Shown here: piece by piece, positions 11,612 through 36,288 of the stretch
Numbering within the stretch: position 1 is the first letter of the stretch
How the letters are laid out: every line of letters starts with the position of its first letter
From: a virus
Virus record (IMG/VR): IMGVR_UViG_3300047471_000084
Span: 1-41,336 of that record
Length of the DNA: 41,336 bases
Reading direction: 5' to 3' (one strand)
The notes under the pieces: model-generated
Seen by the model: only the letters and a program-made list of their open reading frames with translations
Told to the model about the DNA's origin: nothing
The model's database searches: none
Made by a program: the position numbers and the translations under genes

Positions 11612-12086
11612 TGGAATGCCTCATTAGGTATTCGTGGGCCTTCCTTGCAAGTTCTGGATCATCATGTAGGTGTCCCAGAGCCGAATTGCAATGTTTACAA
11701 AGAAGCGCCCTAACTTTGTTTGTTTTGTGGCAGTGATCTACAGATAAAAGTCTTCTGCCTTTCTGTGTTTCTGGTTTACCGCAGATAGCACAAAGATCGT
11801 TTTGCCGATCTCTAAGCTTCTGGAATTCATCCATCGTTAATCCGTACTTTCTTTTTAACCAAGACTTTAGAACCGTAATCTGTTTAATCGCTCGGTGCTT
11901 GTCTTGGTACTCTCGAAAATAGGCCAAATAGGAAGCATGGTAAGAAGGATCACTTTTGATCTTTTCTTTAATTCTGGACCAGTTGCGCTTTCTTCCGTTC
12001 CTGCACTTAGGGGAACAATAGATCTGCGGAACTCCCCGATGGCCAGGGTTTTTGTCAAACCGAGAATTGCATGTGGCACATTCCAT
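11604..12086 (-). CDS. Recombination endonuclease VII (HNH/His-Me family)
   Basis: The endonuclease VII signature is clear in this 160-residue protein: Tyr-Gly-Leu-Thr at 81-84, Cys-Ala-Ile-Cys at 99-102, Val-Asp-His-Cys-His at 116-120, Cys-Lys-His-Cys-Asn at 130-134, and the trailing Leu-Gly-x-Leu-x-Asp-Asp-Pro segment. The family resolves Holliday and branched junctions before DNA packaging. An additional Cys-rich finger at residues 3-28 (Cys-x2-Cys ... Cys-x3-Cys) probably helps DNA binding. It is transcribed late with the lysis genes. Confidence 0.9.
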   Translation of the reverse strand: MECATCNSRFDKNPGHRGVPQIYCSPKCRNGRKRNWSRIKEKIKSDPSYHASYLAYFREYQDKHRAIKQITVLKSWLKRKYGLTMDEFQKLRDRQNDLCAICGKPETQKGRRLLSVDHCHKTNKVRALLCKHCNSALGHLHDDPELARKAHEYLMRHSNA

Positions 12087-14451: not shown

Positions 14452-15930
14452 TCAATAGGCGAAGCAACTTATCGCCAGAACGTCGGAATCAACCCAGGCA
14501 TGAGTGCCAACGATGTCGGTATAATTTTGAAATGTGGCCGATGCCGTCGTGGATGCGGTTTGCAGCGTCGAGGCTACCAGTGTGCTCTTAGTCGTAATAT
14601 CCGTTGCATAACAGTTCCAGCCAGTAGGCGCGGTCGGGAGTGCCACGACTCCAGTGCCGGTATTCGAGGTGCCTACGCCGACACGAAAGGCTGTATGCGA
14701 GCTTCCTGCCGTGACGCTCGCGCCCGTGCCGAATCCCGACGATACCGTGGGAGCGCCGCTGATAAATTCCGCTGCGCTAATCAGACTTTTCCCGGTGGCA
14801 TTGTAGAAAGCCCAGCTATGACCGTCAGCGATGGTTTGCGTATCGGCAAAGAAAGCGGCACTGAATGTGGTCGCGGTGCTTCCATGATTTCCGGCAGCGA
14901 AGGCGTAATTATTGGTAACCGTGCCACCAGCAGAAATCGCATCGGCAGTCGAGTGAAAATCATAATTGTTGGTGACGGCTGTGGTGGGTCCGACCACAAC
15001 GCTATTTGCCCAATATCCATTACTCTCCCCAACAATCACTCCGCCCGAATAATTAGGGGAGGAAACGATGTCTTGATGCAGCGTAACGGAACCCGGCCCG
15101 ATCCATCCAGTAGCCAAGTTGATCTGGTTGGCGAGGCCAACCGTTTGCCCCATATCCACTTTACCGTTTAGATCGCTGTTCAGTACAAGGGCACCAGCAT
15201 TATGTGCATTCGTAGCAAAATAGACAGGATCAACGATTCCGCTGGTTGTTTCGGTCTGCACGAATAGGTTGGCAAACTGTGTCCCATTTTCCTGGGCCAT
15301 CCATACCTTTGCCGGATTGGTTCCCAAATAGTTCTGGAATGCTGGTTCAAAGGTGGACTGTGGGACTCCGGTATATTGGACCTTGTTCGTGGTGTCCCAC
15401 AGAAATTGTGCATCTCCAGCTAATACCGTGGGGCTGCTCCAGAATGCAACTTGTGGAGAAGCCCCGGTTCCTGTAACCGTTCCAGATCCACCAGCCCCAC
15501 TGCCACCTCTAGCTGAAGCAGTAGATAGGTTAATGGCTGCCTCTACGGTTCCGCTGGTATATGCAGATATGCGAACACGAATGCGCTGGTATCCAGCAAC
15601 ATTGACTTGCCAGACTCCCGTGGTGGTTGAAGAAGTGGCCGTTGTAGGGCTATCGCTAGGAGAAGCACTTAGAGCCACCCAGTTAGCACTGGCAACACCT
15701 ACGGTCAGGGGATCTGCCGAAGCTTCAAACTGAACCGTGGCACTGAAAGTACCGGATAGCTTGATTGTTGCCCCTCCGTGGCTGGGTCCAACTTGCAGAA
15801 CCAGACAAGCCTTGGTTTTAGTGCAGTCCGTGCTATCAATCGAGAGATTCCCCACAACTCCACCACTCTGCGCGAATGCCGGAGGACCGAGGAAAGACAG
15901 AAGCAAAAACACGTACAGAATTTTCTTCAC
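14452..15930 (-). CDS. Exported fibre-like protein (492 aa)
   Basis: It begins with a textbook signal peptide (Lys-Lys, hydrophobic core, Ala-Phe-Ala-Gln at 18-21). Residues 30-150 form a jelly-roll-like region (Ile-Lys-Leu-Ser-Gly-Thr-Phe-Ser-Ala-Thr-Val-Gln-Phe-Glu ... Arg-Ile-Arg-Val-Arg-Ile) followed by a Gly/Ser linker. Residues 160-490 resemble tail-fibre shafts with Asn-Lys-Val-Gln-Tyr-Thr-Gly segments. It belongs to a cluster of similar exported proteins. It could be a virion fibre assembled outside the cytoplasm or a secreted decoy or adhesin; sequence alone does not decide. Confidence 0.65.
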   Translation of the reverse strand: MKKILYVFLLLSFLGPPAFAQSGGVVGNLSIDSTDCTKTKACLVLQVGPSHGGATIKLSGTFSATVQFEASADPLTVGVASANWVALSASPSDSPTTATSSTTTGVWQVNVAGYQRIRVRISAYTSGTVEAAINLSTASARGGSGAGGSGTVTGTGASPQVAFWSSPTVLAGDAQFLWDTTNKVQYTGVPQSTFEPAFQNYLGTNPAKVWMAQENGTQFANLFVQTETTSGIVDPVYFATNAHNAGALVLNSDLNGKVDMGQTVGLANQINLATGWIGPGSVTLHQDIVSSPNYSGGVIVGESNGYWANSVVVGPTTAVTNNYDFHSTADAISAGGTVTNNYAFAAGNHGSTATTFSAAFFADTQTIADGHSWAFYNATGKSLISAAEFISGAPTVSSGFGTGASVTAGSSHTAFRVGVGTSNTGTGVVALPTAPTGWNCYATDITTKSTLVASTLQTASTTASATFQNYTDIVGTHAWVDSDVLAISCFAY

Positions 15931-15950: not shown

Positions 15951-17180
15951 TTAGTTGACGCTGGGAATTACTGTAATTTGGTAGGTGCTGTGCCCCGATC
16001 CGGTAGCGGGGGTAGCTGCAATATCTGTGGTATCGAGGTTCATCACGCCTTTAAGCGTAAAGGTCTTAACGTCGCCATTCTGGTAGTCAACCGAACTGAA
16101 TCCACCGAAAGAACTGGTCCCAATTCCTGAGTTGGATACGCCCGTTTCCGTTGCTGCCATCTGGTTGGTACCGTCATCTACCCATACGGTCATGGTTCTG
16201 TTGTTTACGCTGTTATGTTGCAATAGAGAGTAAGAGATAAACACTCGGAACGGACCACCCACAGAAGGGAAGGTGACTGCCTGGGTTGCAATGGTCGTAG
16301 TGCCCGTAGTGACCGTAATGCCAGATACGTTATTGCTGTACACTGCGGGAATAGTCTGAGGGATAACTGCCCATCCCGCTACCGTGGGACTAGATGCAGT
16401 CAACACCTGATTGGCAGTGGGCGTACCGCTGATCGTTACTCCGTTAATCGTGGCGCTTGTCTGCGCATTCATGGTTGTAAATATAGAGGTATTGGGTGCT
16501 GTGGTTCCAATCGGGCAAGGTGATGCCCAATCACAACCGTCCAAGAGGTCAGCGTTCAGGTTGGTAACCTTGGTTGTACTAGCAACGATGAGGGGAGGAG
16601 TGCCAGTGCCTACCGTGGATTGGAACTGATTAGCCACAATGGTTCCGGTAAACGTGGGAGATCCTGAGAAGTTGGGATTGCCTGTAAAAGTACCGTTCAT
16701 GGACCCGCCAGCGTTCATATTCACGGCACCGTTGAAGTTGGTGGTTCCGTTGAATGTATTGGTGCCAGTGAACGTGTTGTTTCCATTCAGGAATATGCCA
16801 ACCTGGAAGTTATCCACTGTCCATTGCAGATTGGAAGGCGAACCGCACGTTCCACCGCCAGCCAGAACGACCTTATAAGCCTGCGATTCCCACCAGATAT
16901 TGGCTCTGCCTGCCGAGTTAAGAACGATTGGATTGCTGTTCTGGACTGTTCCGGTAGAGTCCGTGTACGTTGGCTGGGGCGAGGATGTGCCTGCCGCATA
17001 CGTGCAGACAATGCCTCCAGACAGAGGCGTGCCCGTAGCATCCAGAAACTGGGTTTGTGGCTCCGGCCCCACTTGTACTGGAACTTGGGCAAAAGATGTG
17101 GTAGCGTACGCGAATGCTACGCAGAGCATGGATAGTGCTTTCAATGGTGTGGGCACTGCTTTGTGTTTACGCAAATCCAT
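15951..17180 (-). CDS. Exported tail-fibre-like protein (409 aa)
   Basis: A signal peptide (Ala-Thr-Thr-Ser-Phe-Ala-Gln, about 26-32) precedes a domain seen at the N-terminus of podovirus tailspikes: Phe-Leu-Asp-Ala-Thr-Gly-Thr-Pro-Leu-Ser-Gly-Gly, Pro-Gln-Pro-Thr-Tyr-Thr-Asp, Asn-Pro-Ile-Val-Leu-Asn-Ser-Ala-Gly-Arg-Ala and Tyr-Lys-Val-Val-Leu. Residues 130-190 are Asn/Thr/Phe/Gly repeats of shaft type (Asn-Thr-Phe-Thr-Gly-Thr). The C-terminal 120 residues look like a lectin-type beta domain. ATG 17180 abuts a GGAG; TTG 17174 has better spacing. The head-binding-like part suggests virion attachment, at odds with the signal peptide. Confidence 0.65.
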   Translation of the reverse strand: MDLRKHKAVPTPLKALSMLCVAFAYATTSFAQVPVQVGPEPQTQFLDATGTPLSGGIVCTYAAGTSSPQPTYTDSTGTVQNSNPIVLNSAGRANIWWESQAYKVVLAGGGTCGSPSNLQWTVDNFQVGIFLNGNNTFTGTNTFNGTTNFNGAVNMNAGGSMNGTFTGNPNFSGSPTFTGTIVANQFQSTVGTGTPPLIVASTTKVTNLNADLLDGCDWASPCPIGTTAPNTSIFTTMNAQTSATINGVTISGTPTANQVLTASSPTVAGWAVIPQTIPAVYSNNVSGITVTTGTTTIATQAVTFPSVGGPFRVFISYSLLQHNSVNNRTMTVWVDDGTNQMAATETGVSNSGIGTSSFGGFSSVDYQNGDVKTFTLKGVMNLDTTDIAATPATGSGHSTYQITVIPSVN

Positions 17181-17291: not shown

Positions 17292-19100
17292 CTATTTACC
17301 GCCAGTAGCAAGAAACGCTCTGACCTCTGGACCGCTCATCGTTCCCTTCACATTCAGCATCGTAGCCAGTGAATCAATCATGCTTCTGGTCTTGGGATCT
17401 GCGAGCAGTGCATTTACTCTGGCCTTGGCTTCTGCCTGTTGTTCATTCGCTTGCAAGAATTGATCCTGTCCGAATGTATGGCCCGTCAGGATGCGTGCGA
17501 AGTTGCTCAGGGGTGTGGTCGCGCTGCCAGAGAGAATATCTGCCCTGCGTGCTTGATCTGGGCCGACATGCTTTGCTGTGGTGCCCCCAGGTTCAGACAT
17601 TCCACCCGCATAGCTAACCGCCACCAGATTGCGGATTTCATCTGGATTAAGCTGCTTGGTACTGGTCTTTCCCATCGGAGGGGAAGCGAGGGTATAGCCG
17701 CCCGACTCGTCCAGACCTAGACCTTGAACGGAATTGGGTCGCAGAAGCTCACTGACCACCGCGTGTCCCGCTTCATGGCGTGCGGTATTGAATCGCGTGT
17801 CTGGATCGGCCATGCTCTCGGTTTCATTCAGATTCTGACGGAACTTTATTGGCTTGGCTTTTTCTCCCTGATCTAGGACTTGATCTGGCTTACCTGGCTG
17901 GCGTTTAACGATGCGCTCATACGGTCCTGCCTTGGCATCCACTGCATCCGTGCCGATTAGCGGAGTCTCTTTGCCGGAGCGCGTGTCTATTTTAACCCTT
18001 GAAACATTAGCCCTGCGCTCAGATGATGCACGGTTAATTGCCTCCATGCTGGCAGAGCTTTCACCGCTGGCATTGTTGAGTTCAATCTGCGGAATGGCCC
18101 CCGGGGGAACTCCCCCCTGGGAATTGATATCTTCGGGGCGAATTACTTCTCTCGGTCCAGGATATCCCGTTCCTTCGCTGGGTTGAAATAGGACGGTTTT
18201 CCCTATATTTCTAAGGGTGTCAGCAGCTCCTGGAGTACCGCGTGCTGCTTCTCCGGGAAGGGTTCCACGGGGAACGGAGAACATTGCTCCCGGTCTATCG
18301 CCTGGTTGAAGCGGACGAGGCTCGGGAACCACATTAACTTCAGGAACAACAGAACCCGCAGGTCCGGGAATGTAAGCTCTGGGAATCCTTCCCGGTAGCT
18401 TTACCGACCATCCGATTGGGTTTGGATGATTGGGAATAATGGCGTCCGCTACGGCTGGGCCAGTAAGTCCCCCTATGATCGTTCCGCCCGTTCCCGCCGC
18501 ACTTCCAATAAGACCACCACCCACTCTCGCCGCCCCGCGCACTAGTGGCGTTAACTTACCATTTGGCTGTCTTAATATACGACCAGTGGCATCCTTGACT
18601 ATTCCCACTGCATTTTCGGGAATCGCCTCATGTGCTGCATAGCCTGCCGCCGCTTCGGTTGCTGGTACGGCAGCTTCGGCCAAGACTCCCATCGTATTAC
18701 CTTGGCTTGCGTCTTGTTCCTGACGTTGTAAATTAACGCCAACCATTGGAGCAGCTATGGGAGCTGCTACGGAATAGACTGGATTATATCCTTGTGCTCT
18801 ACGTGCTGCGTAATTCTGGACAGCATCTATGGTCCCACCAACTATTCCATTTGGATCACCGGCATGTTGCAGTGAGGAAATCGCAAATTCTTTTAGTCCT
18901 TCCCCAATACCGCCCTTCTTATAGGCTTCATATCCCGCACCAATAGGACCAAGCATTGCTTTGGCTTGGCGACCAACCACGTCGGCAGCTTGGCTAAAGA
19001 ATCCCGGTTGTTCGGGAGTCTGCGTATCCACCGGAGTAACATCCGTGAAGGTCTGCTGGATTGGCTGTACGTTTGTGAAAGTCTGCGTTTGTGGTGGCAT
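17292..19100 (-). CDS. Ejection/internal virion protein with C-terminal M41 (FtsH-like) peptidase domain
   Basis: This 602-residue protein is last of three ejection-type genes. Residues 1-250 are Gly/Ala-rich with hydrophobic glycine-zipper stretches (around 190-225), as in proteins that form a channel through the envelope. Residues 435-525 match the FtsH M41 site: His-Glu-Ala-Gly-His at 442-446 (bases 17763-17777), a Gly-Gly-Tyr-Thr-Leu strand, then Val-Ala-Val-Ser-Tyr-Ala-Gly-Gly and Gly-Pro-Asp-Gln-Ala-Arg-Arg-Ala-Asp near 513-521, whose first Asp would be the third zinc ligand. The AAA+ domain of FtsH is absent. A peptidase that processes virion or envelope proteins during entry is the inference. 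Confidence 0.72.
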   Translation of the reverse strand: MPPQTQTFTNVQPIQQTFTDVTPVDTQTPEQPGFFSQAADVVGRQAKAMLGPIGAGYEAYKKGGIGEGLKEFAISSLQHAGDPNGIVGGTIDAVQNYAARRAQGYNPVYSVAAPIAAPMVGVNLQRQEQDASQGNTMGVLAEAAVPATEAAAGYAAHEAIPENAVGIVKDATGRILRQPNGKLTPLVRGAARVGGGLIGSAAGTGGTIIGGLTGPAVADAIIPNHPNPIGWSVKLPGRIPRAYIPGPAGSVVPEVNVVPEPRPLQPGDRPGAMFSVPRGTLPGEAARGTPGAADTLRNIGKTVLFQPSEGTGYPGPREVIRPEDINSQGGVPPGAIPQIELNNASGESSASMEAINRASSERRANVSRVKIDTRSGKETPLIGTDAVDAKAGPYERIVKRQPGKPDQVLDQGEKAKPIKFRQNLNETESMADPDTRFNTARHEAGHAVVSELLRPNSVQGLGLDESGGYTLASPPMGKTSTKQLNPDEIRNLVAVSYAGGMSEPGGTTAKHVGPDQARRADILSGSATTPLSNFARILTGHTFGQDQFLQANEQQAEAKARVNALLADPKTRSMIDSLATMLNVKGTMSGPEVRAFLATGGK

Positions 19101-20488
19101 TATTCGGCTAATCCGAGGTCATGGCCTTGTGCATCAAGCCAGTGCTTTTTCTTGTCCACCGAACCAACACCCGTATGTGTGGCATTAGGAGGTTTGGAAG
19201 GAGCGCCAGAACGCGATTGACCACCTCCTTGCGCTCCCCCTGTGTCGATCTGTGACAATCTGGAATTGACGTTAGCAATAATCTTGCGGTGTTCCGTGGG
19301 ATCTTGCGTGGCAATCAATTGCTGCCGTGCCTCGTCTAATGCTTGCTGCTTGGCTGTTACCTTGTCATTCACAACCTGAGTCAATGCCCGTATTTCCCGG
19401 CGCTGTTCAGGGGTAATACTGAGGGCTTCTTTGGGGTCTAATTGCCACTTGTTTACCGCCGCCTGTAAGTCTTGCCACTTCGAGCGACCACCGACCACGC
19501 GGTTAATTTCTGCCTCATTAATGCGGATACCAGAACCCTGACCACCAGCCATAACTGTCATCAATTCCGGGGCAACTAGTGCATCAGCTTGAGGGCTATT
19601 CTGGGCGAGCGTATCGTTCAGGCGGGACAGGCGAGACACCACCGCATCAATCGGGGTCTTCATCTTATCGAGCTGCGTGCTGGAGAATTGATAGCTCTTG
19701 TCTGCCCTGGCTTGATCGTGGAAGTCTGTGTTGGGTGGCGTGCGTGCTACGTTAGTCTTCCAGTCCTCGAATGTGCCCTTATATCCCTGTTTCTGTGCGT
19801 ATTCATAATCCCGCACGTCCTGTGGCTTCATGGTTTCGGCTTGCGTTTTTTCTAGTCGCGCTTCAGATTCCTGCTTTGCCTTCGCTGTAATAGTCTTATC
19901 TGCCAGGTCCAACTGGTCCTTGGCGGAAAGAGCTTGCTGCTGAATCTGATTAACTTCATCCTGACTGAATGGCTGAGATAGGTATTTGGCAGCCGTGGGA
20001 GCGTCTATAAGATTCTCAGAGAGTGCCCTACCGATAGCATTATGGAATGAAGGTTCATCTGTGACCCCGCCAGCCAGTTGCGCCAGCCTTCCCGCAGTCT
20101 CATTGTGGTACTGGATGATGGCTTTTTTGTGGTTCAGGTCGGCAGCATCAGAATCCATTATGCTTTTCTGATATTGGAGACCCAATTGCGGATTGACAGC
20201 CATGATCTGGGGAATGGCAGACTTAAAATCGCTTCCAGAATCGGTAATAATCTTCTCTATCTTGGCTTGATCGTCAATTTCCTTCTGGGTTTGCTGAATC
20301 TTCAGCGCATTCATCTGCTGGGTCTGTTGACCGAGTGCTAGGTTCTGCTGTTGGGCCTGTAATTGCCCCGGTTGCATAGCATTTTGACCAAGCAAGTTGC
20401 CGATCTGGGCAGCTTTGGCCGCACTTCCCAGAATGTCGGGTGCTTCTGGTTGTTTAGCGGAAAGTGCTACAAGAGGAATTGTTCCCAT
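19100..20488 (-). CDS. Ejection/internal virion protein (462 aa)
   Basis: A long helical, Gln/Ala/Lys-rich protein with coiled-coil stretches at about 40-90 and 190-240, and a Gly/Ser/Pro-rich end. It lies between two other ejection-type genes, where P22 has gp20 and gp16. The start chosen, ATG 20488, follows the stop of the upstream gene; ATG 20500 is an alternative. No enzymatic motif was seen. It is expected to be packed in the capsid and released with the DNA. Confidence 0.6.
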   Translation of the reverse strand: MGTIPLVALSAKQPEAPDILGSAAKAAQIGNLLGQNAMQPGQLQAQQQNLALGQQTQQMNALKIQQTQKEIDDQAKIEKIITDSGSDFKSAIPQIMAVNPQLGLQYQKSIMDSDAADLNHKKAIIQYHNETAGRLAQLAGGVTDEPSFHNAIGRALSENLIDAPTAAKYLSQPFSQDEVNQIQQQALSAKDQLDLADKTITAKAKQESEARLEKTQAETMKPQDVRDYEYAQKQGYKGTFEDWKTNVARTPPNTDFHDQARADKSYQFSSTQLDKMKTPIDAVVSRLSRLNDTLAQNSPQADALVAPELMTVMAGGQGSGIRINEAEINRVVGGRSKWQDLQAAVNKWQLDPKEALSITPEQRREIRALTQVVNDKVTAKQQALDEARQQLIATQDPTEHRKIIANVNSRLSQIDTGGAQGGGQSRSGAPSKPPNATHTGVGSVDKKKHWLDAQGHDLGLAE

Positions 20489-20489
20489 G

Positions 20490-21266
20490 TTAAATGTCCG
20501 CCTCATGGCCATAGCCGTACCATGTATTACTACCACTGCTCGTGATCTGGTCTGGCTTATAGGCGTTATTTAGGGCATTCAGTTGAGAGATTTGCATTAG
20601 TCCGTTACCGGCATTACTCAGACCGCCACCAATCGCATTACCGAGGGACGTGTATCCGCTCGCCCGCGCAGCCGCAGCGTTATTGGTTTGCTGGTTTACC
20701 TGATTCGTTTCGTTGCCGAGGATGTTCGCATTGAGGCCGGAGGCGTTTTGTCCTGCCGCACCCAATTCATTAGCCGAGTTCTGACCAATTCCAGCCAATC
20801 CGAACTGGTTATTGGCGTTGGTCTGGTAGGTCTGCAATGCTCGGTTGTAGACATTTCCGTATTCGTTGGAGGCTGTACCCTGGGCATAATCGTTAATCGC
20901 CTTGGCGGTTCCACCAGAAAGCAATCCACCGCGAGCCGCAGCCGAATTCTCCAGGGCCTTCTGGCCTTGCTGCAAACGGAATTGATAGCCGGGGTCGTTC
21001 TGCTCGGTCACATCCGTGGGGGCCGCGAAAGGAGACATACCACTCAGCGAAGAAATAGCCTTAGTTCCAGCTTGCAGATAAGGATTCTGGTTCTGCTGGT
21101 TCTGCTGGAGTTGGGCATTGCTATAGTCAATGGCCTGGGTACCATTGTTCTTAGCAAGGGCAGAGGCTTGCTGGGCAGCTTGCTGTTGAGCGCCCGCAGC
21201 CTTGCTACCCGCAATTCCCTGGATAACACTTCCCGCTACGCTTCCCGCTACTGCTGCTAGTGGCAT
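20490..21266 (-). CDS. P22 gp7-like DNA transfer/ejection protein (258 aa)
   Basis: A Gly/Ala-rich hydrophobic N-terminus (Ala-Val-Ala-Gly-Ser-Val-Ala-Gly-Ser-Val-Ile-Gln-Gly-Ile-Ala-Gly) is followed by a Gln/Ala coiled coil and a segment typical of this group: Asp-Pro-Gly-Tyr-Gln-Phe-Arg-Leu-Gln-Gln-Gly, Ala-Ala-Arg-Gly-Gly-Leu-Leu-Ser-Gly-Gly-Thr, Tyr-Asn-Arg-Ala-Leu. The pattern is common in podovirus internal proteins that leave the capsid first and help the DNA cross the envelope. Position before two further ejection-type proteins supports this. Confidence 0.72.
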   Translation of the reverse strand: MPLAAVAGSVAGSVIQGIAGSKAAGAQQQAAQQASALAKNNGTQAIDYSNAQLQQNQQNQNPYLQAGTKAISSLSGMSPFAAPTDVTEQNDPGYQFRLQQGQKALENSAAARGGLLSGGTAKAINDYAQGTASNEYGNVYNRALQTYQTNANNQFGLAGIGQNSANELGAAGQNASGLNANILGNETNQVNQQTNNAAAARASGYTSLGNAIGGGLSNAGNGLMQISQLNALNNAYKPDQITSSGSNTWYGYGHEADI

Positions 21267-22835: not shown

Positions 22836-23492
22836 TTATGCTATCCACCAATTGGTGCCACCGTCTGAGATCATTTCAATGTCCGTATATTGAAAAGTAA
22901 TCACTTGTGTCGTTGCTCCGTCTATTAAATCTCCACCGGAACGAGCTATCGTTAGTGTATTAACGTCAGCCGAGGTCTTCTTAACTCGAATAGACTTATT
23001 CAAATTAGCTGCTGCCAAAGGAAGCGTCACCGTGAAACCTCCACCACTCGTATTCCCCAAAACCATGTCATTTGCAACGGCGTTGTAATTGGCGCTCTTT
23101 GCTGTAGTGCTCCATGAGCTAACTACGATTGCCGCTATCGCCGCTTGCACGAAAGCATCCGTAGCGATTTTGGTTGTGTTGTCTCCGGGTGCTTGTGTTG
23201 GAGCGCTGGGACTGCCCGTAAATGCAGGGCTGTTGGTTGGAGCTGCCCCGGTTACCTGATTTACGTTGTAGTCACCAGAAACTGCTACAACTGCGCCAGA
23301 ACGTCCAAAAACAGATGTAACTAGGCCCGTTCCAGTGCCCGTGTTAAACGCTGCCGCTATCTCTTGAAACCACTTGATCCATCCCCAAGACGGATAGCCA
23401 GCTTCGTCTACTTTGGTTTTTCCGCCGTTGGCGGTCCATTGCTTATCCGGGAATGGCGTCCGTACTGGAGGCGCAGGGAACTGGGTAGCCAT
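22836..23492 (-). CDS. Tail fibre-like protein (218 aa)
   Basis: ATG 23492 overlaps the stop of the upstream exported gene (TAATG); a longer upstream frame exists but only shadows that gene. Residues 25-75 include Ser-Trp-Gly-Trp-Ile-Lys-Trp-Phe and the motif Val-Thr-Ser-Val-Phe-Gly-Arg-Ser-Gly-Ala-Val-Val-Ala-Val-Ser-Gly-Asp-Tyr, a very common module of phage tail fibres. The C-terminal third is beta-rich (Phe-Thr-Val-Thr-Leu-Pro). It has no signal peptide, unlike its neighbour. Confidence 0.65.
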   Translation of the reverse strand: MATQFPAPPVRTPFPDKQWTANGGKTKVDEAGYPSWGWIKWFQEIAAAFNTGTGTGLVTSVFGRSGAVVAVSGDYNVNQVTGAAPTNSPAFTGSPSAPTQAPGDNTTKIATDAFVQAAIAAIVVSSWSTTAKSANYNAVANDMVLGNTSGGGFTVTLPLAAANLNKSIRVKKTSADVNTLTIARSGGDLIDGATTQVITFQYTDIEMISDGGTNWWIA

Positions 23493-24667
23493 TACCGCCC
23501 AACACAGATGTACCTGAGATGGTCCGTATTCGCTCCACCCGTTTCCACAATGGTCACAGAAGATGAGGCATAGGTATTGAAAGACACGATTCCCGCTGCC
23601 GCAGTAAGGTCCGATCCCGTGCAGGAGTACAGGGCATCCGAGAAGGGAAGCGTGGTAATCGACTGACTGGTTGCCGTGTTTAGTGCGACATCTCCAAAGA
23701 CCACGATAGGCGTTGTCTGGATGGTCTTGGCGCAAGCTTGTGTAGCTCCAGAGGTTGCACCGCAATATTCGGTTACTCCTACCGTGGGAATGGAGACACC
23801 CGAGACACCAGAAGATCCAGAATGGGTTATCGTAAGTGTGGACGTGGGGTTAGATCCCGCTCCCAGCACGTTCTGAATGTTCCATGTGTCTAGCCCCGAT
23901 ACTGCACCCGTCCAATAGGTTCCCGTAGCCTTGTAATTACCAGAGTTGTGGTTAGCCCCACCCGTAGCAGCCGAAGTTTGGAGTGACTGAATATCGGTGG
24001 AGGCCACGATGGTAGCCGCCGAGTTAACCGTGCCGAAGTTGGTCACACCAGAGAATGTAAGTCCCCCAGAACCGGAACCTGAATGGGTGATCGTCAGGGC
24101 CGTCTGTGGATTCGTGCCTCCCTGTACGGCATTCTGAAATGAATAGGTATCCGCTTGGCTCGCTGCTCCATCCCAATAAGTGCCCGCATAAACCGTGCTT
24201 GGGGAGCTTTGATTGTTAACCCCAGTGGCTGCGGTTGTATTGGTAAATGCGGCAGTTCCGGTGGTTCCGCTGGGAGTCCACTTAAGGGAATTGCTGCAAC
24301 CCAAGGTATTGGAAGCGGTTCCATAAACAATCTGATTCGTGGTGCAGCTTCCACTAAACAATCCAGCGCCGGTAAGTGATACCCAGGAAGACCCATCTGT
24401 GCGGCAAAGGGACGCAGTAGAACCCCCGCCAGAGGTGCAATCAGAGGCGCTTTGGCCATCCGTTACCACCACAATTTCACGGGTGGGACTGGTTGTAGTG
24501 GCGTTGGGAAGCGTGCCAACGGTGTACTGAGCTAGTGCGGTAGCCAGGGAAGACGTGAAGATATTCGTTCCCGTGAAGGTGTTGTTAGTATCCTCGGCGG
24601 GGAAAGTATGGGTCTGGGCCGCTGCCGTGATAGGCAACAGCATTAGCAGGAACAGTAGTTTATTCAT
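23492..24667 (-). CDS. Exported fibre-like protein (391 aa)
   Basis: The N-terminus (Lys-Leu-Leu-Phe-Leu-Leu-Met-Leu-Leu-Pro then Thr-Ala-Ala-Ala-Gln at 14-18) is a Sec signal peptide. The body is Thr/Ser/Gly/Asn-rich with shaft-like repeats and two related units, each with Tyr-Trp-x-Gly-Ala, then Leu/Tyr..Trp/Phe-x-Ile/Asn-Gln-Asn and Leu-Thr-Ile-Thr-His-Ser-Gly-Ser. It overlaps the gp10-like gene by ATGA and the next fibre gene by TAATG, so it is made with the virion proteins. It is far from the other exported proteins at 12-17 kb but of the same style. Confidence 0.65.
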   Translation of the reverse strand: MNKLLFLLMLLPITAAAQTHTFPAEDTNNTFTGTNIFTSSLATALAQYTVGTLPNATTTSPTREIVVVTDGQSASDCTSGGGSTASLCRTDGSSWVSLTGAGLFSGSCTTNQIVYGTASNTLGCSNSLKWTPSGTTGTAAFTNTTAATGVNNQSSPSTVYAGTYWDGAASQADTYSFQNAVQGGTNPQTALTITHSGSGSGGLTFSGVTNFGTVNSAATIVASTDIQSLQTSAATGGANHNSGNYKATGTYWTGAVSGLDTWNIQNVLGAGSNPTSTLTITHSGSSGVSGVSIPTVGVTEYCGATSGATQACAKTIQTTPIVVFGDVALNTATSQSITTLPFSDALYSCTGSDLTAAAGIVSFNTYASSSVTIVETGGANTDHLRYICVGR

Positions 24668-26442
24668 CCTTGATCCGCTCCTGTCTTCAAGTAAGCATCC
24701 GTGATACGCCAGGGAATGGGGTCTGACATGCTGATTTCATATACGCGGTCCCTGGCTCGTCCCAGCCTGCGGAACATGACACGCTTGGTATATTCTCCAG
24801 CCTTGCCAGCCCCGGCAGAGTATTCATTGCTCCAGGTATGACCGCCGTCATTGGACCAGCGCAGGTTAATCATTGGGTCTCTGCCGTCTGGGTCACCAAT
24901 TCCGGTACTGACGTTGCTGGTTATAAATATATTGCTCACTGAAATCGTGGCCGAGAATCCCGATGGGCTGGTAGCAATGTCATAGGTGGTGGATTGGGAT
25001 GAATCGAAAGTAACCGAGGTGGTAGTTAGCTTTCCGGTTGTATCTATCCCTAACTGCCATGTGGTATTTGGCAAAGTATCGTCATTTATAAATATTGTGG
25101 CAACGGTTCCACTGGCAACAACCACCCTGGACAGTATTCCCGCATCGGTCATGCTCACCGACCATAGGACGTTATTAGAATCTTCCAGAACGAAGCTGTT
25201 CGCTATCGTGGAAGGAGTGAAAAGAGGGGGCTGTGGGCCTAATCCAGACTCAAGGTAGACCTGCAACTGCGAGTGGAATACCCATTCCTGCTGTCCAGAG
25301 GCGTGTGGAGCTCGTCTAACGCGGCGCAAGGGGTTTCCTGCATCGTCGAACAGAGAGATGCTCATATTGTAAATGTTGCCCGTTGCCCAATCTCCCACGA
25401 GGTGCTTCCCGAAGGCGAATGTATGGCACTGGCTGCGGTGCGCGGTGAATATGCCGTTACTGGACACCCAGTAGCCGCGTTGGTGCCACATTCCGGTTGA
25501 AACGTCATAGACCCAGGTGGCATTGGCGGTAGGGAAGTAAAGTTGGTAGAAAGAATGGCCTTGGTCTTGAAATGAATAGCCGATGGCATCGTTAAGACCT
25601 GTCTGCCCGTACTTGGTCAGGTAGCCCTGTAAGGCAAACTCTATCGCGTGATTGCTGACACGTTGTGGCGTATAGCCCTGCGCCCTCCATATCACTCCGG
25701 CCCCTCGTTCGTCACCGCCAAGCCAGAAAATAGAGTTATCCAGGCGTACACGGCTGTCAGGAGCGAAGATACCAGCCTCAATGAATCCGCCCGGAACGAT
25801 GTCAAATGTCTGAGCAGAACCAGAATCGTAGTAAACCTGTGTCTGCCGCTCACCCCAGAACCATATTTCCCGGTGGTCAATCAGCATGGAAAGGACGTTC
25901 CCGGTAAATACGGAGACCTTTTGAGTATCTAGCGGGTCCCACAAGGTCGCATCCAGCAGGGAAGACCACTGGAATTGGTTGGAGTTCTTAAGCAGTGCGA
26001 CAAAGAAACCGTCGATATAGCCGACCTGCGATATTGGACCCAGGAATGTAGCACCCACCAAAGGAGTAAAGGTATTGGTGCTAATGTCGAATACATAGCA
26101 CATTCCCGCGCTGGCAATCAGGATCTGGGTCGTACCTCCAGCCATGGAAACTAGCTTGGAATCATTCAGCAGCGTTCCAAAGTTGGTCTTGGTGCCCGCC
26201 GAATCCACTTCGTAGAACCTGCTGCCACCCACCGCAAAATAGCGGTCATTGATGATAATGGAGCCGCGTACTGGGGTATCTCCGAGGTTGGAAAATACCT
26301 CAAGTCCCCCCGTGGGATAGAGCGCAATGGGAGACTGCCCCATACCTTCCGAAGACTCAGGATATAGATTCATCGTGAGTTGATCGGCTAAGTTGGGTGA
26401 TTGGCTTGTGTAACTTGGACCGCAAAGCCCAAATGGTGGCAT
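24664..26442 (-). CDS. P22 gp10-like packaged-DNA stabilisation/tail hub protein (592 aa)
   Basis: The last 90 residues have the family signature: Asn-Leu-Arg-Trp-Ser-Asn-Asp-Gly-Gly-His-Thr-Trp, Ala-Gly-Glu-Tyr-Thr-Lys-Arg, Arg-Arg-Leu-Gly-Arg-Ala-Arg-Asp-Arg-Val-Tyr-Glu and Ser-Asp-Pro-Ile. Internal strands such as Leu-Asp-Asn-Ser-Ile-Phe-Trp-Leu-Gly and Tyr-Trp-Val-Ser-Ser-Asn-Gly form a propeller-like body. In P22, gp10 closes the portal-gp4 channel and anchors the fibres. Placement after gp4-like and before fibre genes agrees. P22 gp10 is shorter (about 470 residues); the extra length here is mainly in the 390-500 region. Confidence 0.8.
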   Translation of the reverse strand: MPPFGLCGPSYTSQSPNLADQLTMNLYPESSEGMGQSPIALYPTGGLEVFSNLGDTPVRGSIIINDRYFAVGGSRFYEVDSAGTKTNFGTLLNDSKLVSMAGGTTQILIASAGMCYVFDISTNTFTPLVGATFLGPISQVGYIDGFFVALLKNSNQFQWSSLLDATLWDPLDTQKVSVFTGNVLSMLIDHREIWFWGERQTQVYYDSGSAQTFDIVPGGFIEAGIFAPDSRVRLDNSIFWLGGDERGAGVIWRAQGYTPQRVSNHAIEFALQGYLTKYGQTGLNDAIGYSFQDQGHSFYQLYFPTANATWVYDVSTGMWHQRGYWVSSNGIFTAHRSQCHTFAFGKHLVGDWATGNIYNMSISLFDDAGNPLRRVRRAPHASGQQEWVFHSQLQVYLESGLGPQPPLFTPSTIANSFVLEDSNNVLWSVSMTDAGILSRVVVASGTVATIFINDDTLPNTTWQLGIDTTGKLTTTSVTFDSSQSTTYDIATSPSGFSATISVSNIFITSNVSTGIGDPDGRDPMINLRWSNDGGHTWSNEYSAGAGKAGEYTKRVMFRRLGRARDRVYEISMSDPIPWRITDAYLKTGADQG

Positions 26443-29140: not shown

Positions 29141-30361
29141 TTAGCTCGCAATCCTTACCGCCAGTTGCGGATACAGCGTTGCCCAGCCGCCCAGCAAATC
29201 CATACGGAGAGGAGCGCGGTCCAGGTTGATGTCATAGTCACGAATGACGCGCATGGACATTTTCAGGTCCTGATCGTCCGAGATGCGGTCGCCCATATCC
29301 AACCCGCCATACAGCGGCAGATCAGCTGAAGCGAAGGTGAAAGCATCTTCGTGGAAGGCCAAACCGCGCTGGCCAGTCACCGCCGAGGCTCCGTTGACCG
29401 TCACCGCGACGTTGTTAGCAACGCCAACAGTCACGTTCTGGTAGGGGCCGGAGGTGATGATGCCAGTGCCGTTGATGGCGATGGGGATAGTCGCGTTTCC
29501 GCCGCTGTCCGAGGTAACGTCCGCAGTCACAACAAAGTCAGCCAAGCGGTTAAAAGAGGCCAAGCTCTGTGGGTTGACTGCGAACACGTTTCCGAACTGG
29601 ATCACGTCGCCGCGATTCAGAACTTGGATAGAGGCGGTCCAACCATCGGTGATGATGGAAGAGCCAGTTTGTACGGTGGCGCTATTGGCAAGCGGGGTTC
29701 CGCCCTGGAGTCCGACCGTGTGGTTGCGCACGTTCTGATCCATGTACCAATCGAAGCCAACCGTATCCTCGGTCATCATACCCTTGTCGTACTGTTCGGT
29801 AATGGTTCTCTGGGGATTAAACAAGCCAGAGAGGGCATTAACGATAGTCGCGTTCATGTTGGGGCTGATAACTACGCACCGATCTTCAAGCGGAGCCGCT
29901 TCGTTTGACAGAAGAGCGCCTGCATCAAGATAGGTCTGGAGGGTGTTGGGGATTGTTCCCGGGGTACCGACTTCGTTGTTCACGGTCTTGTACAGGTCCA
30001 GACCGTCATAGTCGATTTCGTTCGCCATGCTCTTCATGGCCTTGTCAATGAAGCGTTTTCGGAAATCATCCACGCTCAAGGCAAGGTCAGCAGAGGTAAT
30101 GGCAAAGGAGCGCTGATATTGCTTATTCAGCACCACCGGAACCGAAGATTCCGTCAGATCCTGAAGAATCAAGCCCTGACCGGAACTGGCTACGAAACGC
30201 ACAGGCAAACGCACGTTGAGTACGTTGCCAATCTTTGCGCCAGCCTTTGCAAACTGGGAATCATATGCTCGGCTGATCTGTTTCGTGAACGTAAGCTCGT
30301 TCTCAAGAACGCGCAGAGTTTCACGGGTAATCATACCGATTGTTAAAAGTGTGTTACTCAA
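29141..30361 (-). CDS. Major capsid (coat) protein, P22 gp5-like (406 aa)
   Basis: The sequence follows the P22 coat family: an N-terminal helix (Leu-Arg-Val-Leu-Glu-Asn-Glu-Leu), Lys-Ile-Gly-Asn-Val-Leu-Asn-Val-Arg-Leu-Pro, a Phe-Ala-Ile-Thr-Ser-Ala-Asp-Leu strand, Phe-His-Glu-Asp-Ala-Phe-Thr-Phe-Ala and a final Leu-Asp-Arg-Ala-Pro-Leu-Arg-Met-Asp-Leu-Leu-Gly-Gly-Trp segment. It forms the icosahedral HK97-fold shell. The start is TTG at 30361, with an ideal AAGGAGG five bases upstream and no good ATG nearby. Length is close to P22 coat (430). Upstream lie scaffold and portal, in P22-like order. Confidence 0.9.
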   Translation of the reverse strand: MSNTLLTIGMITRETLRVLENELTFTKQISRAYDSQFAKAGAKIGNVLNVRLPVRFVASSGQGLILQDLTESSVPVVLNKQYQRSFAITSADLALSVDDFRKRFIDKAMKSMANEIDYDGLDLYKTVNNEVGTPGTIPNTLQTYLDAGALLSNEAAPLEDRCVVISPNMNATIVNALSGLFNPQRTITEQYDKGMMTEDTVGFDWYMDQNVRNHTVGLQGGTPLANSATVQTGSSIITDGWTASIQVLNRGDVIQFGNVFAVNPQSLASFNRLADFVVTADVTSDSGGNATIPIAINGTGIITSGPYQNVTVGVANNVAVTVNGASAVTGQRGLAFHEDAFTFASADLPLYGGLDMGDRISDDQDLKMSMRVIRDYDINLDRAPLRMDLLGGWATLYPQLAVRIAS

Positions 30362-30548: not shown

Positions 30549-31454
30549 CTACCTGCGACCCTGGGCCACTAATTTCTTGTAAGTCTGATAATCCGTCTTA
30601 TCCAGGGGCACTGTGGATTGAGTCTTACCGCCAGAAATGGGCTTGATTGGCGCTGGTGCCTTGGTCTTGAGCTTCGGTTCTGGCTTTTCCTCTACTTCTT
30701 CAGCCTCTTCCTCTGGCTCTTCGTCATCCAGGCTGATCTTTTCGCCTGCCAACTTGCGGGATACGTCCCATGCCATCGCAATTGCCTTGGAGGGAGGCGC
30801 TGCGACCATCTTCTCGCAGAGTTCAGGGTGCTGGGCCAGGTAAATGGCCACTTCCGGCCCATTTTCCATCTCGTATTTGACTGGAAACTCAATGGCGACT
30901 GGAACCTTGATGTCTTGCTTCATCAGCTCAACATATTCTTCGTTGGTGGCCTGAAGTTCGATCATTTTGGCGTTATAGGCCTTGTCAGCCTCGGCCTTCT
31001 CGGTGGCTTGTTGCTGCTTGGCTTCTGATTCTCGCTCTGCCTTCAGTTCTTGCTTGGCTTCCCAGCGAACCACTGCACGCCAATAGGCTGCATCTGACTC
31101 GTAATTCTCTCTAGCTGGCTCGCCATCTTGCGTCTGTTCTGTTTTCGGAACGGCAGGATTAGACTTAGAGCGCAATTCTTCCTTTTCCTTGCGCTCTTCT
31201 GCCAGTTGAGCTTCCAGTGCCGCTTGCTGCTTAATCAGGCGGTCAATCCTAGCCTGCCAACCGCCCTTATGCTTGGGCTTTTCCTCTTTTGGCTCTTCGG
31301 ACTCGCTCTTGGCTTCCTCGGCGGGCTTCTCAACTTCCTGCGTTACCGTAGACTTGCCTTCAGTGCGGGCTTTCTTGTACTCCCGCATATCCGTGACTTG
31401 ATCCAGCGGTACTTCCTTGGTTTCTGGTGCTTGAACTACTGTTTCTTCGGGCAT
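30549..31454 (-). CDS. Scaffolding protein (301 aa)
   Basis: A highly charged, Glu/Lys/Ala-rich, mostly helical protein lies between portal and coat, the place of P22 gp8. It has coiled-coil stretches at about 65-100 and 125-165, an acidic block near 240-265 (Glu-Pro-Glu-Glu-Glu-Ala-Glu-Glu) and a basic C-terminus, Tyr-Lys-Lys-Leu-Val-Ala-Gln-Gly-Arg-Arg. In P22 it is the basic C-terminal helix-turn-helix that binds coat. The start overlaps the portal stop by TAATG. P22 scaffold is 303 residues, nearly the same. Confidence 0.82.
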   Translation of the reverse strand: MPEETVVQAPETKEVPLDQVTDMREYKKARTEGKSTVTQEVEKPAEEAKSESEEPKEEKPKHKGGWQARIDRLIKQQAALEAQLAEERKEKEELRSKSNPAVPKTEQTQDGEPARENYESDAAYWRAVVRWEAKQELKAERESEAKQQQATEKAEADKAYNAKMIELQATNEEYVELMKQDIKVPVAIEFPVKYEMENGPEVAIYLAQHPELCEKMVAAPPSKAIAMAWDVSRKLAGEKISLDDEEPEEEAEEVEEKPEPKLKTKAPAPIKPISGGKTQSTVPLDKTDYQTYKKLVAQGRR

Positions 31455-33610
31455 TATTGCTGCGCTCCTTCTGATTGTTGCTGCTGGGCTTGCTGTTCAG
31501 CCATGTTTTGCTCATGGGCTTGGTCAGTTGCCTGCGAAAGCTGGGCCTGTTGTGCTTGCTGCTGTGCCATATCCTGCTGGTGGGCGTGATCCTGTGCTTG
31601 CATGGCTACGTCGTGAGCCGCATCGTGCTGGGATTGCTGCTGGGCTGCGATTAGCTTGTATTGCGCAATCTCGTTCTCCGCGAACGCTTGATTGGCATCC
31701 TTGGAGGCATTAATCTGGGCCACTGCCAGCTTGGTGGCTTCTTGCAACTTCACTATCTCGGTCTTCGTCATCTCCTGAACTTGGGCTATTTGAAGCTTCC
31801 CTTGCTGCTCGATCTGCTTAGTTTCCACTACTTTTTGGGCATCCTGCAAGGCTTTAGTCAGGAGATCATGCTGCTGGGCCAGTTGCTGCATTTGGGCTTG
31901 CATCTGCTGCATCTTGACTTGCGGATCCGAGTCATCGTCACCCACAATATTGGGAGGCAGGGTCTTCTTAATGCGGTCGGCTACCTGTTCAGCCCAGGGC
32001 GTATCCATCTCGCGCACAACCAGGTCAGTCACAATGGCTGATTGCTGGGGCGGGATGGTCTTCAGTAGGTCAATGCCGGTCTGAACCGATTCCTGACGCT
32101 TGGATTGGTAGGTTGGACCAACCGATATGATCACATCGTACTTGCCAACCCCGATGTTGTAGATGTTCTTTATGTCTGACTCTTCTGCCATTGCCTGAGC
32201 CTGTTCTTGCTGCTCTTCGCCGTTGTGGATTACCACATGCTTGACCGATCCATCGGGATTAATGATTCTCTGCACCCGGGGCGTGTCATAGATGACCTGA
32301 ATCCACTCCAGAATCGACTTGCCAAGCCGTTTTAGCATCCGGCCCATATTGTCCGAATAGTTCAGGGTTGCCACGTTGCCCTGGGCCTGTAGGCGCTCGA
32401 TAGCCTTACCAGACTCATCTCCGCGGCGCTGTCCTAAAGATGGGTCATAAATACCCAATGAAGCCTTAAGGTCCAGAGAAGCCTGAGAAATCATCTGGGA
32501 CATGCCTGCAATAGGTGGTTCTGCCACGTTACGCTGTGGCGGTGGAGCTGGCTTACCGCCTACATCTGTCTGCTTATAGGTCAATACTGCGAAGTTGCGG
32601 ACGTTGGCCTGCTCCCACATTACCTGCTGTGTACCGCCGATCTGTCCTTCCGCAACGATCCAAGGGGCTTTAGGAGCTAGGCTTACTGCCTCGGTAGCAC
32701 CCGATACCATGTAATTATATTGCCGCTGTGGTCCCTTTGCGTTACGAACAAGTCCGGCCACGTACCGCTTACCGTCCACGTCGATGTCATCTGCATAGGC
32801 TGTGAAGACTGGGATGCTGGTTCCTGGTAGTTCTTGCCCTTCTTCTCCGCCTTCGAGGATTTCATATGCTGTCAGCTTCCTCCATATCACTTTCTTCTTC
32901 GGGCGCTTATCCTTACCCCGGTCAACGTCCACCACCTCGAAATACTCAGCTACCCGGATGTAATCCTTGTTAATCCAGGTCGGTGGTTGGTTTCCCGTGG
33001 CTGTCCACTCGCTGGAACTGGCCATAATGGAGTCTGGAAACTCAGTATTGAAAGTCTCCATTGGCATATCACTGATAATGAAGCAATAACGAGCCTTTTC
33101 CTGTGGTACCCCAGGTTGCCAATAGACCGAGAATCCGTTCTTAATCCATTCAATTACAATGTCTTGCTCGTCCGAATCATCGTCCGTGTAATCACTCAGC
33201 AGGCGGCAGCTATGGAATCCAGTCCTGACCATGCCTTCATGGGTCTTCTCATAGACCACCTGGGCATCTGAATTAACCTCAATATGCCTTACGCAGCCCT
33301 GGATAATCTCAGCCGTATCCACGTCCGCACCGCTACCCACGGGATTGATCGTAATGGAAGGCGGTTGCTGCCTATACTGGTTGCAGACCAGTCGGATAGA
33401 CTGCTGAATCTGATCCATGACCAGGCACGGCCTGCCATCCTTCTCCCTGATAGTCTGAATCGTTAGTGGCCATTGGTTCCCAATAGAGAAATCTAGGTCA
33501 TCCAGACATTCCTGACGCCATGACTCGTCAGCTTCAGCAGCTAGCTTGAAGCGTTCTATGGCGGTCTGAATTACTGGGGAAATGAGGTGGGATTCTTGTT
33601 TAACGGCCAT
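31454..33610 (-). CDS. Portal protein, P22 gp1-like (718 aa)
   Basis: The family is recognisable from the N-terminal Phe-Ser-Ile-Gly-Asn-Gln-Trp, Arg-Pro-Cys-Leu-Val-Met-Asp-Gln, Val-Arg-Thr-Gly-Phe segments and the central Ser-Leu-Gly-Ile-Tyr-Asp-Pro-Ser-Leu-Gly segment. Twelve copies form the vertex through which terminase packs DNA. From about 560 to 718 the protein is a long Gln/Ala-rich helix with Gln-Gln-Ala-Gln-like repeats, equivalent to the P22 barrel domain. Length matches P22 portal (725). The gene starts 11 bases inside the end of the GroES-like gene. Confidence 0.9.
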   Translation of the reverse strand: MAVKQESHLISPVIQTAIERFKLAAEADESWRQECLDDLDFSIGNQWPLTIQTIREKDGRPCLVMDQIQQSIRLVCNQYRQQPPSITINPVGSGADVDTAEIIQGCVRHIEVNSDAQVVYEKTHEGMVRTGFHSCRLLSDYTDDDSDEQDIVIEWIKNGFSVYWQPGVPQEKARYCFIISDMPMETFNTEFPDSIMASSSEWTATGNQPPTWINKDYIRVAEYFEVVDVDRGKDKRPKKKVIWRKLTAYEILEGGEEGQELPGTSIPVFTAYADDIDVDGKRYVAGLVRNAKGPQRQYNYMVSGATEAVSLAPKAPWIVAEGQIGGTQQVMWEQANVRNFAVLTYKQTDVGGKPAPPPQRNVAEPPIAGMSQMISQASLDLKASLGIYDPSLGQRRGDESGKAIERLQAQGNVATLNYSDNMGRMLKRLGKSILEWIQVIYDTPRVQRIINPDGSVKHVVIHNGEEQQEQAQAMAEESDIKNIYNIGVGKYDVIISVGPTYQSKRQESVQTGIDLLKTIPPQQSAIVTDLVVREMDTPWAEQVADRIKKTLPPNIVGDDDSDPQVKMQQMQAQMQQLAQQHDLLTKALQDAQKVVETKQIEQQGKLQIAQVQEMTKTEIVKLQEATKLAVAQINASKDANQAFAENEIAQYKLIAAQQQSQHDAAHDVAMQAQDHAHQQDMAQQQAQQAQLSQATDQAHEQNMAEQQAQQQQSEGAQQ

Positions 33611-34519: not shown

Positions 34520-34819
34520 TCAAACCCCCTTGCATGGTTTACCCTCTATCTCATAGATAGCAAAGACTTCTTGGACGGTCTTACCGGCTGGCACCTTAAG
34601 CGGGAGGATCGAAGCACCCACAAGTGGACTATCCTTGTCAACGGCAAACACAGAATCAGGGCCAATAGCATCTTCATCGATCACCACCAGATAAGACGTA
34701 TCTGCCTTAATCACTGCCTGAGCAGCTTGCTTGCTAGGTCCTTGCGTGGTCTTTACGTCCATGAAGGGAACTGCAATCAAGGACTTAATGAGGGTTCTGC
34801 GGCCAAGACTATCGGTCAT
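34520..34819 (-). CDS. Hypothetical protein with Tat-like N-terminus (99 aa)
   Basis: ATG 34819 overlaps the stop of the large terminase by ATGA. Residues 6-20 read Gly-Arg-Arg-Thr-Leu-Ile-Lys-Ser-Leu-Ile-Ala-Val-Pro-Phe, close to the twin-arginine signal pattern, though the hydrophobic part is short. The remainder is a small beta domain (Tyr-Leu-Val-Val-Ile-Asp-Glu-Asp ... Ile-Leu-Pro-Leu-Lys-Val). No family recognised. Confidence 0.45.
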   Translation of the reverse strand: MTDSLGRRTLIKSLIAVPFMDVKTTQGPSKQAAQAVIKADTSYLVVIDEDAIGPDSVFAVDKDSPLVGASILPLKVPAGKTVQEVFAIYEIEGKPCKGV

Positions 34820-36288
34820 GCTCCCATCCAAGACAGCCTAGATTCACCTGGATACCGCATCTCTGGCTCTGGCTTGGGCGCTGGAGGCGCTACCTTGACA
34901 GAGAATGTCATGGCCAGCATATCGGCCCTATCCGGGGATCCAATCTCAGGAAACCGCTTCTTTAGGTCTTCTTTTCGTTCAAGCTGTATTTGGCCCTTAT
35001 TGCTGAAGCCGTATTCAAGCGCACAGAGTTGAGCACAGAGGTCAGGATCGTCCGGTATTTCGACTTGAGAGTTAAGCCAATCACGCATGAGTCCCCAGAC
35101 CTCAGCGCGTCTATTAAAATATGTGGTGGAGTCATTAGCAGTAGCGCCTCCGTGAAATCCGTGGACTCGCTCTGCATATCCCCTGATCTCCATGTGGTCA
35201 ATGACGCCGCCTCCGACTCCATCCTCGTCAATTACGATTGCATCCGGGCTTTCCTTGCCCATGAACTCAATGACCCTCTCGGCTACCTGGGCTGTGCTCA
35301 ATCCTCGTAACGTAGCCAGAATCACTGCCTTACGTCCTTGCCGCCACCCGATAACCGTCTCGTCCGCACCGAACCTGGCCACATCCACAGACAGAATCTT
35401 AGGTAATCCCTCGTAGCCCTCAGCCTTGTACTTTCTGGCAGCTTCGACAATGTCTGATGGGATAAACTGTGCAGAACCAGCGCGGGGAAACTCACCCCGT
35501 ACCCTAACTCTAACGAAGTCTGAGTCTTCGCCGTAGTCCGCAATCCACTTCTCAATCTGTGCTTTGTTGGTTCCCTCAACGGTCCTGCTGTCTATCTGGA
35601 AGGTCTTCCATCGGTGCTTGAGGCGTCCGAAGCATTCCCTAAACCTGCCAGTGTTTTGAGTAGGATTGCCAAAGGCAAGCCAGATAATTTCTGTGTCCTC
35701 ATCTGTAAGGGCACCTTCTGCGACTTGCCATACGCTATCAGCAATTGCGCTTGCTTCGTCAAAGATAAGCAGAATGCGCTTTCCTTTGTTATGCAGTCCC
35801 GCAAAAGCCTCTGTGTTGTTTTCCGACCAGGGGATCGCATCTACCCTCCACAGCTTAGAATGCTCTGGGTCTTTAACCGTAATGCTGGTGGCCTTCATCT
35901 CCCACCAATGAGAGTTAATGCTGAGCCTAAACCACTTATGTATCTCTGGGACTGTCTTGGTGGCGAGCTGTGTACCCGTATTGGCCGTTACGATTACTTT
36001 ACAGTCCTCGCAAGTAGAAACAGCCCAGTGAATGACCATCGACACAAGCGCTGACTTACCGATTCCATGCCCAGAAGCCACAGCAACCATGCAAGGCTGA
36101 AAGCGAGTAGCAGGATTGGATAGATGGTTGCCAATCTCAGCCAGCACCCCCGCTTGCCAGGGACGCGGGCCAGTCGATCCATCCAGCTCGTCTTTTCCCC
36201 ATTCATAAGAACCTTCTGCCAATCTAACGGGATCGTGCGTGCAATCGGCAACCGCATCTATCAGCTGCTCTTCGGTGCTTGGTTCCAT
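34816..36288 (-). CDS. terL: Terminase large subunit (490 aa)
   Basis: This is the packaging motor. The ATPase has Walker A Gly-His-Gly-Ile-Gly-Lys-Ser at 73-79, Walker B Ile-Leu-Leu-Ile-Phe-Asp-Glu at 172-178 and a Gly-Asn-Pro-Thr segment near 207-210. The RNase H-like nuclease has Ser-Val-Asp-Val-Ala-Arg-Phe-Gly at 300-307 (Asp302), Val-Ile-Asp-Glu-Asp-Gly-Val-Gly-Gly-Gly at 352-361 and Asp-Arg-Ala-Asp at 453-456 giving the metal-binding acids. All needed residues are present. The ATG overlaps the small terminase stop by TAATG. The subgroup cannot be used to tell headful from other packaging without alignment. Confidence 0.95.
   Translation of the reverse strand: MEPSTEEQLIDAVADCTHDPVRLAEGSYEWGKDELDGSTGPRPWQAGVLAEIGNHLSNPATRFQPCMVAVASGHGIGKSALVSMVIHWAVSTCEDCKVIVTANTGTQLATKTVPEIHKWFRLSINSHWWEMKATSITVKDPEHSKLWRVDAIPWSENNTEAFAGLHNKGKRILLIFDEASAIADSVWQVAEGALTDEDTEIIWLAFGNPTQNTGRFRECFGRLKHRWKTFQIDSRTVEGTNKAQIEKWIADYGEDSDFVRVRVRGEFPRAGSAQFIPSDIVEAARKYKAEGYEGLPKILSVDVARFGADETVIGWRQGRKAVILATLRGLSTAQVAERVIEFMGKESPDAIVIDEDGVGGGVIDHMEIRGYAERVHGFHGGATANDSTTYFNRRAEVWGLMRDWLNSQVEIPDDPDLCAQLCALEYGFSNKGQIQLERKEDLKKRFPEIGSPDRADMLAMTFSVKVAPPAPKPEPEMRYPGESRLSWMGA

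Follow-up and report, generated by a model that had tools for sequence, protein, structure and literature searches.

FtsH-type peptidases are familiar mainly as fusions to an AAA+ motor. Zincin domains on injected polyvalent phage proteins, such as P1 DdrB and N4 vRNAP, are already known; the polyvalent MPTases fall into 12 clades that are not specifically tied to earlier-known zincin clades, and the 2017 polyvalent-protein survey names neither FtsH nor M41 (PMC5512222). A HExxH domain is also present in the ejected N4 vRNAP (PMC12633501). For podovirus ejection proteins, a review describes swapped peptidoglycan-hydrolase and transglycosylase domains and no protease (PMC8954989), and our search of the open-access literature turned up no ejection protein described with an M41 domain. 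The locus examined here adds to this picture an M41-like peptidase, not FtsH itself, as the cargo of a probable ejection protein.

The DNA that was analyzed (the window) is a 41,336-base virus record of a P22-like phage, a soil virus of bacteria. The features discussed below are as follows.

34816..36288, minus strand: terminase large subunit (phrog_2)
31454..33610, minus strand: P22-like portal (PF16510, E = 8e-136)
29141..30361, minus strand: major head protein (phrog_283)
24664..26442, minus strand: head closure Hc3 (phrog_578)
20490..21266, minus strand: first ejection gene, phrog_598 "DNA ejection" (E = 6.5e-26)
19100..20536, minus strand: second ejection-position gene, 478 amino acids (assigned by position; no family match)
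17292..19100, minus strand: third ejection-position gene, 602 amino acids, ATG start (open reading frame)
18996..19100, minus strand: conserved N-terminal 35 residues of the third protein, MPPQTQTFTNVQPIQQTFTDVTPVDTQTPEQPGFF (87% DNA identity to a sibling phage, from alignment)
18078..18995, minus strand: variable N-terminal ejection-type part, residues 36 to 341, Gly/Ala-rich (DNA without a match in the sibling)
17868..18068, minus strand: connector, residues 345 to 411 (common to late proteins with other or no cargo)
17295..17849, minus strand: M41-like peptidase domain, residues 418 to 602 (profile, model and Foldseek; boundary from the relative L004/L006)
17763..17777, minus strand: HEAGH, residues 442 to 446, with predicted ligands His442 and His446 and catalytic Glu443 (conserved in all relatives)
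17691..17699, minus strand: Gly-Tyr-Thr, residues 468 to 470 (aligned at the place of M41 "GVT")
17538..17564, minus strand: GPDQARRAD, residues 513 to 521 (proposed third zinc ligand Asp515 at 17556-17558)

The window shares with the P22 system of gp7, gp20, and gp16 a P22-like portal, a phrog_598 ejection gene, and a mosaic third protein of the kind reviewed previously (PMC8954989); unlike the P22 ejection proteins, it has an added enzyme domain in residues 418 to 602. A first-pass annotation, made from the sequence alone, had taken the 602-residue protein to be the product of the third ejection-type gene. This placement was borne out: the phrog_598 gene, of the gp7 type, lies two genes upstream, and the three-gene order was the same in most of the 53 related loci found with the first ejection gene as the query. 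The annotation had also regarded an M41-like peptidase as uncommon on ejection proteins, in agreement with our finding that none of 39 other third-position proteins had a HExxH or M41 match. Likewise, all proteins of the 53 related ejection loci scored 10.4 bits or less with the broad M41 profile described below. In L013, another phage, the third ORF matched residues 92 to 155 of the variable part (E = 5e-8). Given the gene order, and given that the N-terminal part matches late ORFs in the corresponding position of other phages, we infer that the 602-residue protein is present in the virion. The host is likely a member of the Acidobacteriota, since two related ejection genes sit in genomes of this group, including one of Candidatus Sulfotelmatobacter.

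Within the protein, HEAGH is the sole HExxH motif, and Asp515 sits 69 residues past His446. The residues and coordinates first reported for HEAGH, Gly-Tyr-Thr, and GPDQARRAD were confirmed. The proposed absence of an AAA+ motor also held, since neither a Walker-A pattern nor an AAA match was found in the 602-residue protein (Pfam and motif check); the fused AAA+ module that characterizes FtsH is missing.

To what extent the domain resembles M41 depends on the profile used. The Pfam Peptidase_M41 model gave 13 bits against the 602-residue protein, under the 29.9-bit cutoff. When PF01434 was run against all six frames of three virus genomes, it produced a single match in each, on the M41-carrying gene (15.3, 14.9, and 12.0 bits); the match in the window (15.3 bits, E = 3.9e-4) likewise fell below the curated cutoff of 29.9. 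A broad M41 profile comprising 32 FtsH and AAA-less M41 domains, with the window family left out, covered the whole window domain at about 42 bits and scored 43 bits on the relative L004; over all translated loci, the window protein scored 39 bits (E = 4e-10). The part following HEAGH, taken alone, scored 15.3 bits in the window, a value reached by 1 of 4,000 shuffles, and 21.5 bits in L004, reached by none of 4,000. On this same part, six non-M41 HEAGH proteins scored at most 2.9 bits, and three held-out AAA-less M41-like proteins scored 11 to 24 bits. Under these shuffle and non-M41 controls, the broad profile shows residues 418 to 602 to be M41-like over the whole domain. FtsH-only profiles supported the HEAGH helix alone; with an Acidobacteriota FtsH-only profile, the post-HEAGH part did no better than shuffles (580 of 3,000 reached the real score).

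Other searches returned few relatives. A phmmer search of the PDB gave nothing relevant. Among 50,697 phage records, tblastn detected no relatives of either the 602-residue protein or its connector; the domain gave just one meaningless match (E = 5). Gapped DNA patterns spanning HEAGH to GPD recovered just the two known relatives, a scan of genome contigs for the domain found none, and a profile of the phage domain gave three weak matches in 396 Acidobacteriota genomes, two of which were divergent FtsH proteins.

When viral contigs were surveyed for TAxHEAGH[AV] (at least 80 loci), many FtsH proteins were recovered; among the matches listed were also more than 10 proteins that have an M41-like GG helix and Asp segment but no AAA module, as well as several large proteins of another zincin type. 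Small AAA-less M41-like proteins appeared fairly common in viral contigs (L104, L107, L113, L121, L122, L151, L155, L159, L169, L176, and L181) and form a group meriting its own profile. Such phage proteins (L121, L155, L169, and L181; BFVD A0A6J5RJ76) resemble the window domain in lacking an unfoldase and in occurring in phage genomes. They are, however, mostly stand-alone proteins of about 200 to 250 residues, whereas the window domain forms the C terminus of an ejection protein.

An AlphaFold2 model of the domain made with its own family only (3 sequences) had a pLDDT of 45. With alignment A7, which includes ten other M41 domains (FtsH and AAA-less) among its 13 sequences, pLDDT rose to 83.4 and pTM to 0.83 (pLDDT 78 to 83 across five models). 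Because A7 holds M41 sequences and was picked for aligning Asp515, the model is conditional on the M41 hypothesis and is not independent evidence for it. In a Foldseek search of the PDB, ranks 1 to 23 were all FtsH-family structures (FtsH, AFG3L2, YME1, and FtsHi; lowest E, 1.3e-5; highest TM, 0.73), and the next-ranked match had a probability of 0.06. Against viral models, the named confident matches were M41 and FtsH proteins; one match, from a tailed phage, was a 214-residue "Peptidase M41 domain-containing protein." The fold, modeled from the M41-containing alignment, is of the FtsH family; in a local hhalign comparison, just the HEAGH helix aligned.

His442 and His446, predicted zinc ligands, share one helix of the model (HEAGH in helix 4-24), and all three relatives retain both HEAGH and the GPD segment unaltered. 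Asp515 fell on the M41 Asp in all three MAFFT modes when the alignment was limited to the first 95 residues, and also in A7; it fell off the M41 Asp in full-length alignments (A6 and others). Full-length MAFFT usually misplaces Asp515 (about 8% of reference sites matched, as a mean over random subsets). Asp515 is the proposed and probable third zinc ligand; Glu503 may instead serve as a ligand. Overall, the domain shares with FtsH and the MEROPS M41 family (PF01434) the HEAGH helix, GxT strand, GG helix, GxD segment, and C-terminal helical hairpin, and its model matches FtsH, AFG3L2, and YME1. Unlike FtsH, it is motorless, about 180 residues long, below the Pfam cutoff, and carried on a phage ejection protein.

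Outside the window, the domain recurred in a sibling phage and in a polyvalent-type protein of a 98-kb phage, and in none of the 39 other third-position proteins. In the sibling (L002, 39,794 bases), the C-terminal 260 residues were near-identical and the first 35 were similar, with 87% DNA identity over gene nucleotides 7 to 106 and no match over nucleotides 107 to 990. The shared C-terminal part differed by 50 silent and 3 amino-acid changes (dN/dS = 0.016), an excess which argues that the reading frame is real and under selection; dN/dS was higher in the neighboring first (0.037) and second (0.097) ejection genes. In the 98-kb phage, the M41-like domain (70% identity) closes a 2,038-residue polyvalent-type protein (L006:433-6549), which also carries DUF7178 and a second, mid-protein HELGH segment and is encoded downstream of the terminase, portal, and major head protein genes. 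The domain around that HELGH segment, with GSDGQRA downstream, was itself weakly M41-like (10.5 bits).

The connector (residues 345 to 411) was found in two further phages. In L225, a 469-residue late protein ends soon after the connector, without a peptidase. In L226, a late gene (L226:2210-8191) encodes a protein of at least 1,994 residues in which the connector (about 65 residues; 59% identity) is combined with a C-terminal part that is DarB-like antirestriction (phrog_10089, 1,153 bits). The L226 protein has in common with the window protein the connector and a late gene, and the two differ in cargo, a methylase plus helicase in L226 and a peptidase in the window. Neither phage matched the first two ejection proteins of the window, so that third-gene position in L225 and L226 is assigned by gene order only. 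A remote connector-like segment was also seen in a 1,217-residue open frame of an Acidobacteriota genome (L227, G059:C24:44691-44894; 25.5 bits, E = 6.7e-5 for one genome); this segment may be a chance match or a chromosomal relative of injected effectors. Judged from these comparisons, the M41-like domain is an exchangeable C-terminal cargo module, and a possible role of the connector is as a signal for packaging or delivery that exchangeable cargos have in common.

With an N-terminal part, a connector, and one enzyme domain, the window protein is itself a polyvalent candidate. Like the polyvalent proteins with a zincin-like MPTase (P1 DdrB and N4 vRNAP), it is a modular late-gene product with a predicted zinc peptidase domain, and it is predicted to be injected; in those MPTases the third ligand is Glu (PMC5512222), whereas in the M41-like domain of the window it is probably Asp.

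Taken together, these results point, with somewhat better than even confidence, to a P22-like podovirus whose third ejection protein is modular and bears, as swappable cargo, an M41-like zinc peptidase that is ejected and acts early on a host protein. The 602-residue protein, whose variable N-terminal part and conserved connector carry the peptidase at the C terminus, would be packaged and then ejected with the DNA. By alignment, His442, His446, and probably Asp515 would hold the zinc, with Glu443 as the general base. Without an AAA+ unfoldase, the enzyme would be expected to cut just flexible or locally unfolded segments. Its most likely substrate would be a protein of the host, located at or inside the inner membrane and cut early in infection; the second most likely would be its own connector or another ejection protein. 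An early role against a host protein is suggested by the co-occurrence of the domain and connector with polyvalent-type and DarB-like proteins. The original interpretation stands in part: the M41-type domain, its intact HEAGH, the missing motor, and its rarity in this gene position hold, and the finding that the cargo is exchangeable and the connector shared with a DarB-like protein shifts the likeliest role to an early-infection effector or self-processing. More tentatively, P22-like phages and larger phages of soil bacteria may load exchangeable enzymes, among them an FtsH-type peptidase and a DarB-like antirestriction enzyme, onto a late injected protein through a common connector, and the peptidase would then be an effector, injected to cleave a protein of the host at the moment of entry. 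If the preferred reading is true, a motorless FtsH-type peptidase would add a catalytic class to the injected phage enzymes, and the connector common to a DarB-like protein provides a sequence handle for further injected payloads in uncultured phages.

Four alternatives were weighed. The main rival, which we hold at well below even likelihood, is self-processing: within the head or once inside the cell, the peptidase would cleave either its own connector or a different ejection protein and so free the N-terminal part. Iyer et al. proposed such a role for the polyvalent MPTases, citing processing of P1 DdrB (PMC5512222), and in the window a strongly conserved connector directly precedes the domain. 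However, conservation of the connector is just as strong in L225, which has no peptidase after it, and where the cargo is DarB-like, and the connector therefore need not be a cleavage site. It is unlikely that catalysis has been lost and that the M41-like fold serves as a binding or membrane-docking domain, in the manner of plant FtsHi subunits. The best structural matches include FtsHi complexes, the AAA+ motor is absent, and the match to catalytic M41 models is weak; yet HEAGH and the GPD segment are intact in three relatives, and selection on the domain is very strong. We consider it improbable that HEAGH arose by chance or convergence on an unrelated helical domain, or marks a gluzincin of the polyvalent type. 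This reading draws on the FtsH-only statistics, which back the HEAGH helix alone, and on the dependence of the structure model on an M41 alignment, but it is opposed by the broad M41 profile with its shuffle and non-M41 controls and by a confident fold whose only confident matches are FtsH. The polyvalent gluzincin type in particular was disfavored, as non-M41 HEAGH proteins failed the profile and no gluzincin appeared among the fold matches. The 602-residue protein matched no such gluzincin model in Pfam or PHROGs. Least probable of all is a virion-assembly protease acting in the prohead on scaffold or head proteins, with ejection incidental: several phages do use maturation peptidases (PMC7824862), but related operons lack the domain, so that assembly of such virions does not need it, and an unrelated larger phage carries the domain as cargo too.

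Several minor features of the surrounding late region were also observed. Three late genes beside the ejection operon (14452-15930, 15951-17180, and 23492-24667, all minus strand) have a tail-fibre-like composition and start with apparent Sec signal peptides, which is odd for virion proteins; in L225, the gene after the third gene likewise starts with an apparent Sec signal peptide. Downstream of the M41-carrying gene, the window encodes an endonuclease VII-type nuclease (11604-12086, minus strand), and in the 98-kb phage a similar-looking gene (L004:5537-6058) adjoins the M41-carrying gene.
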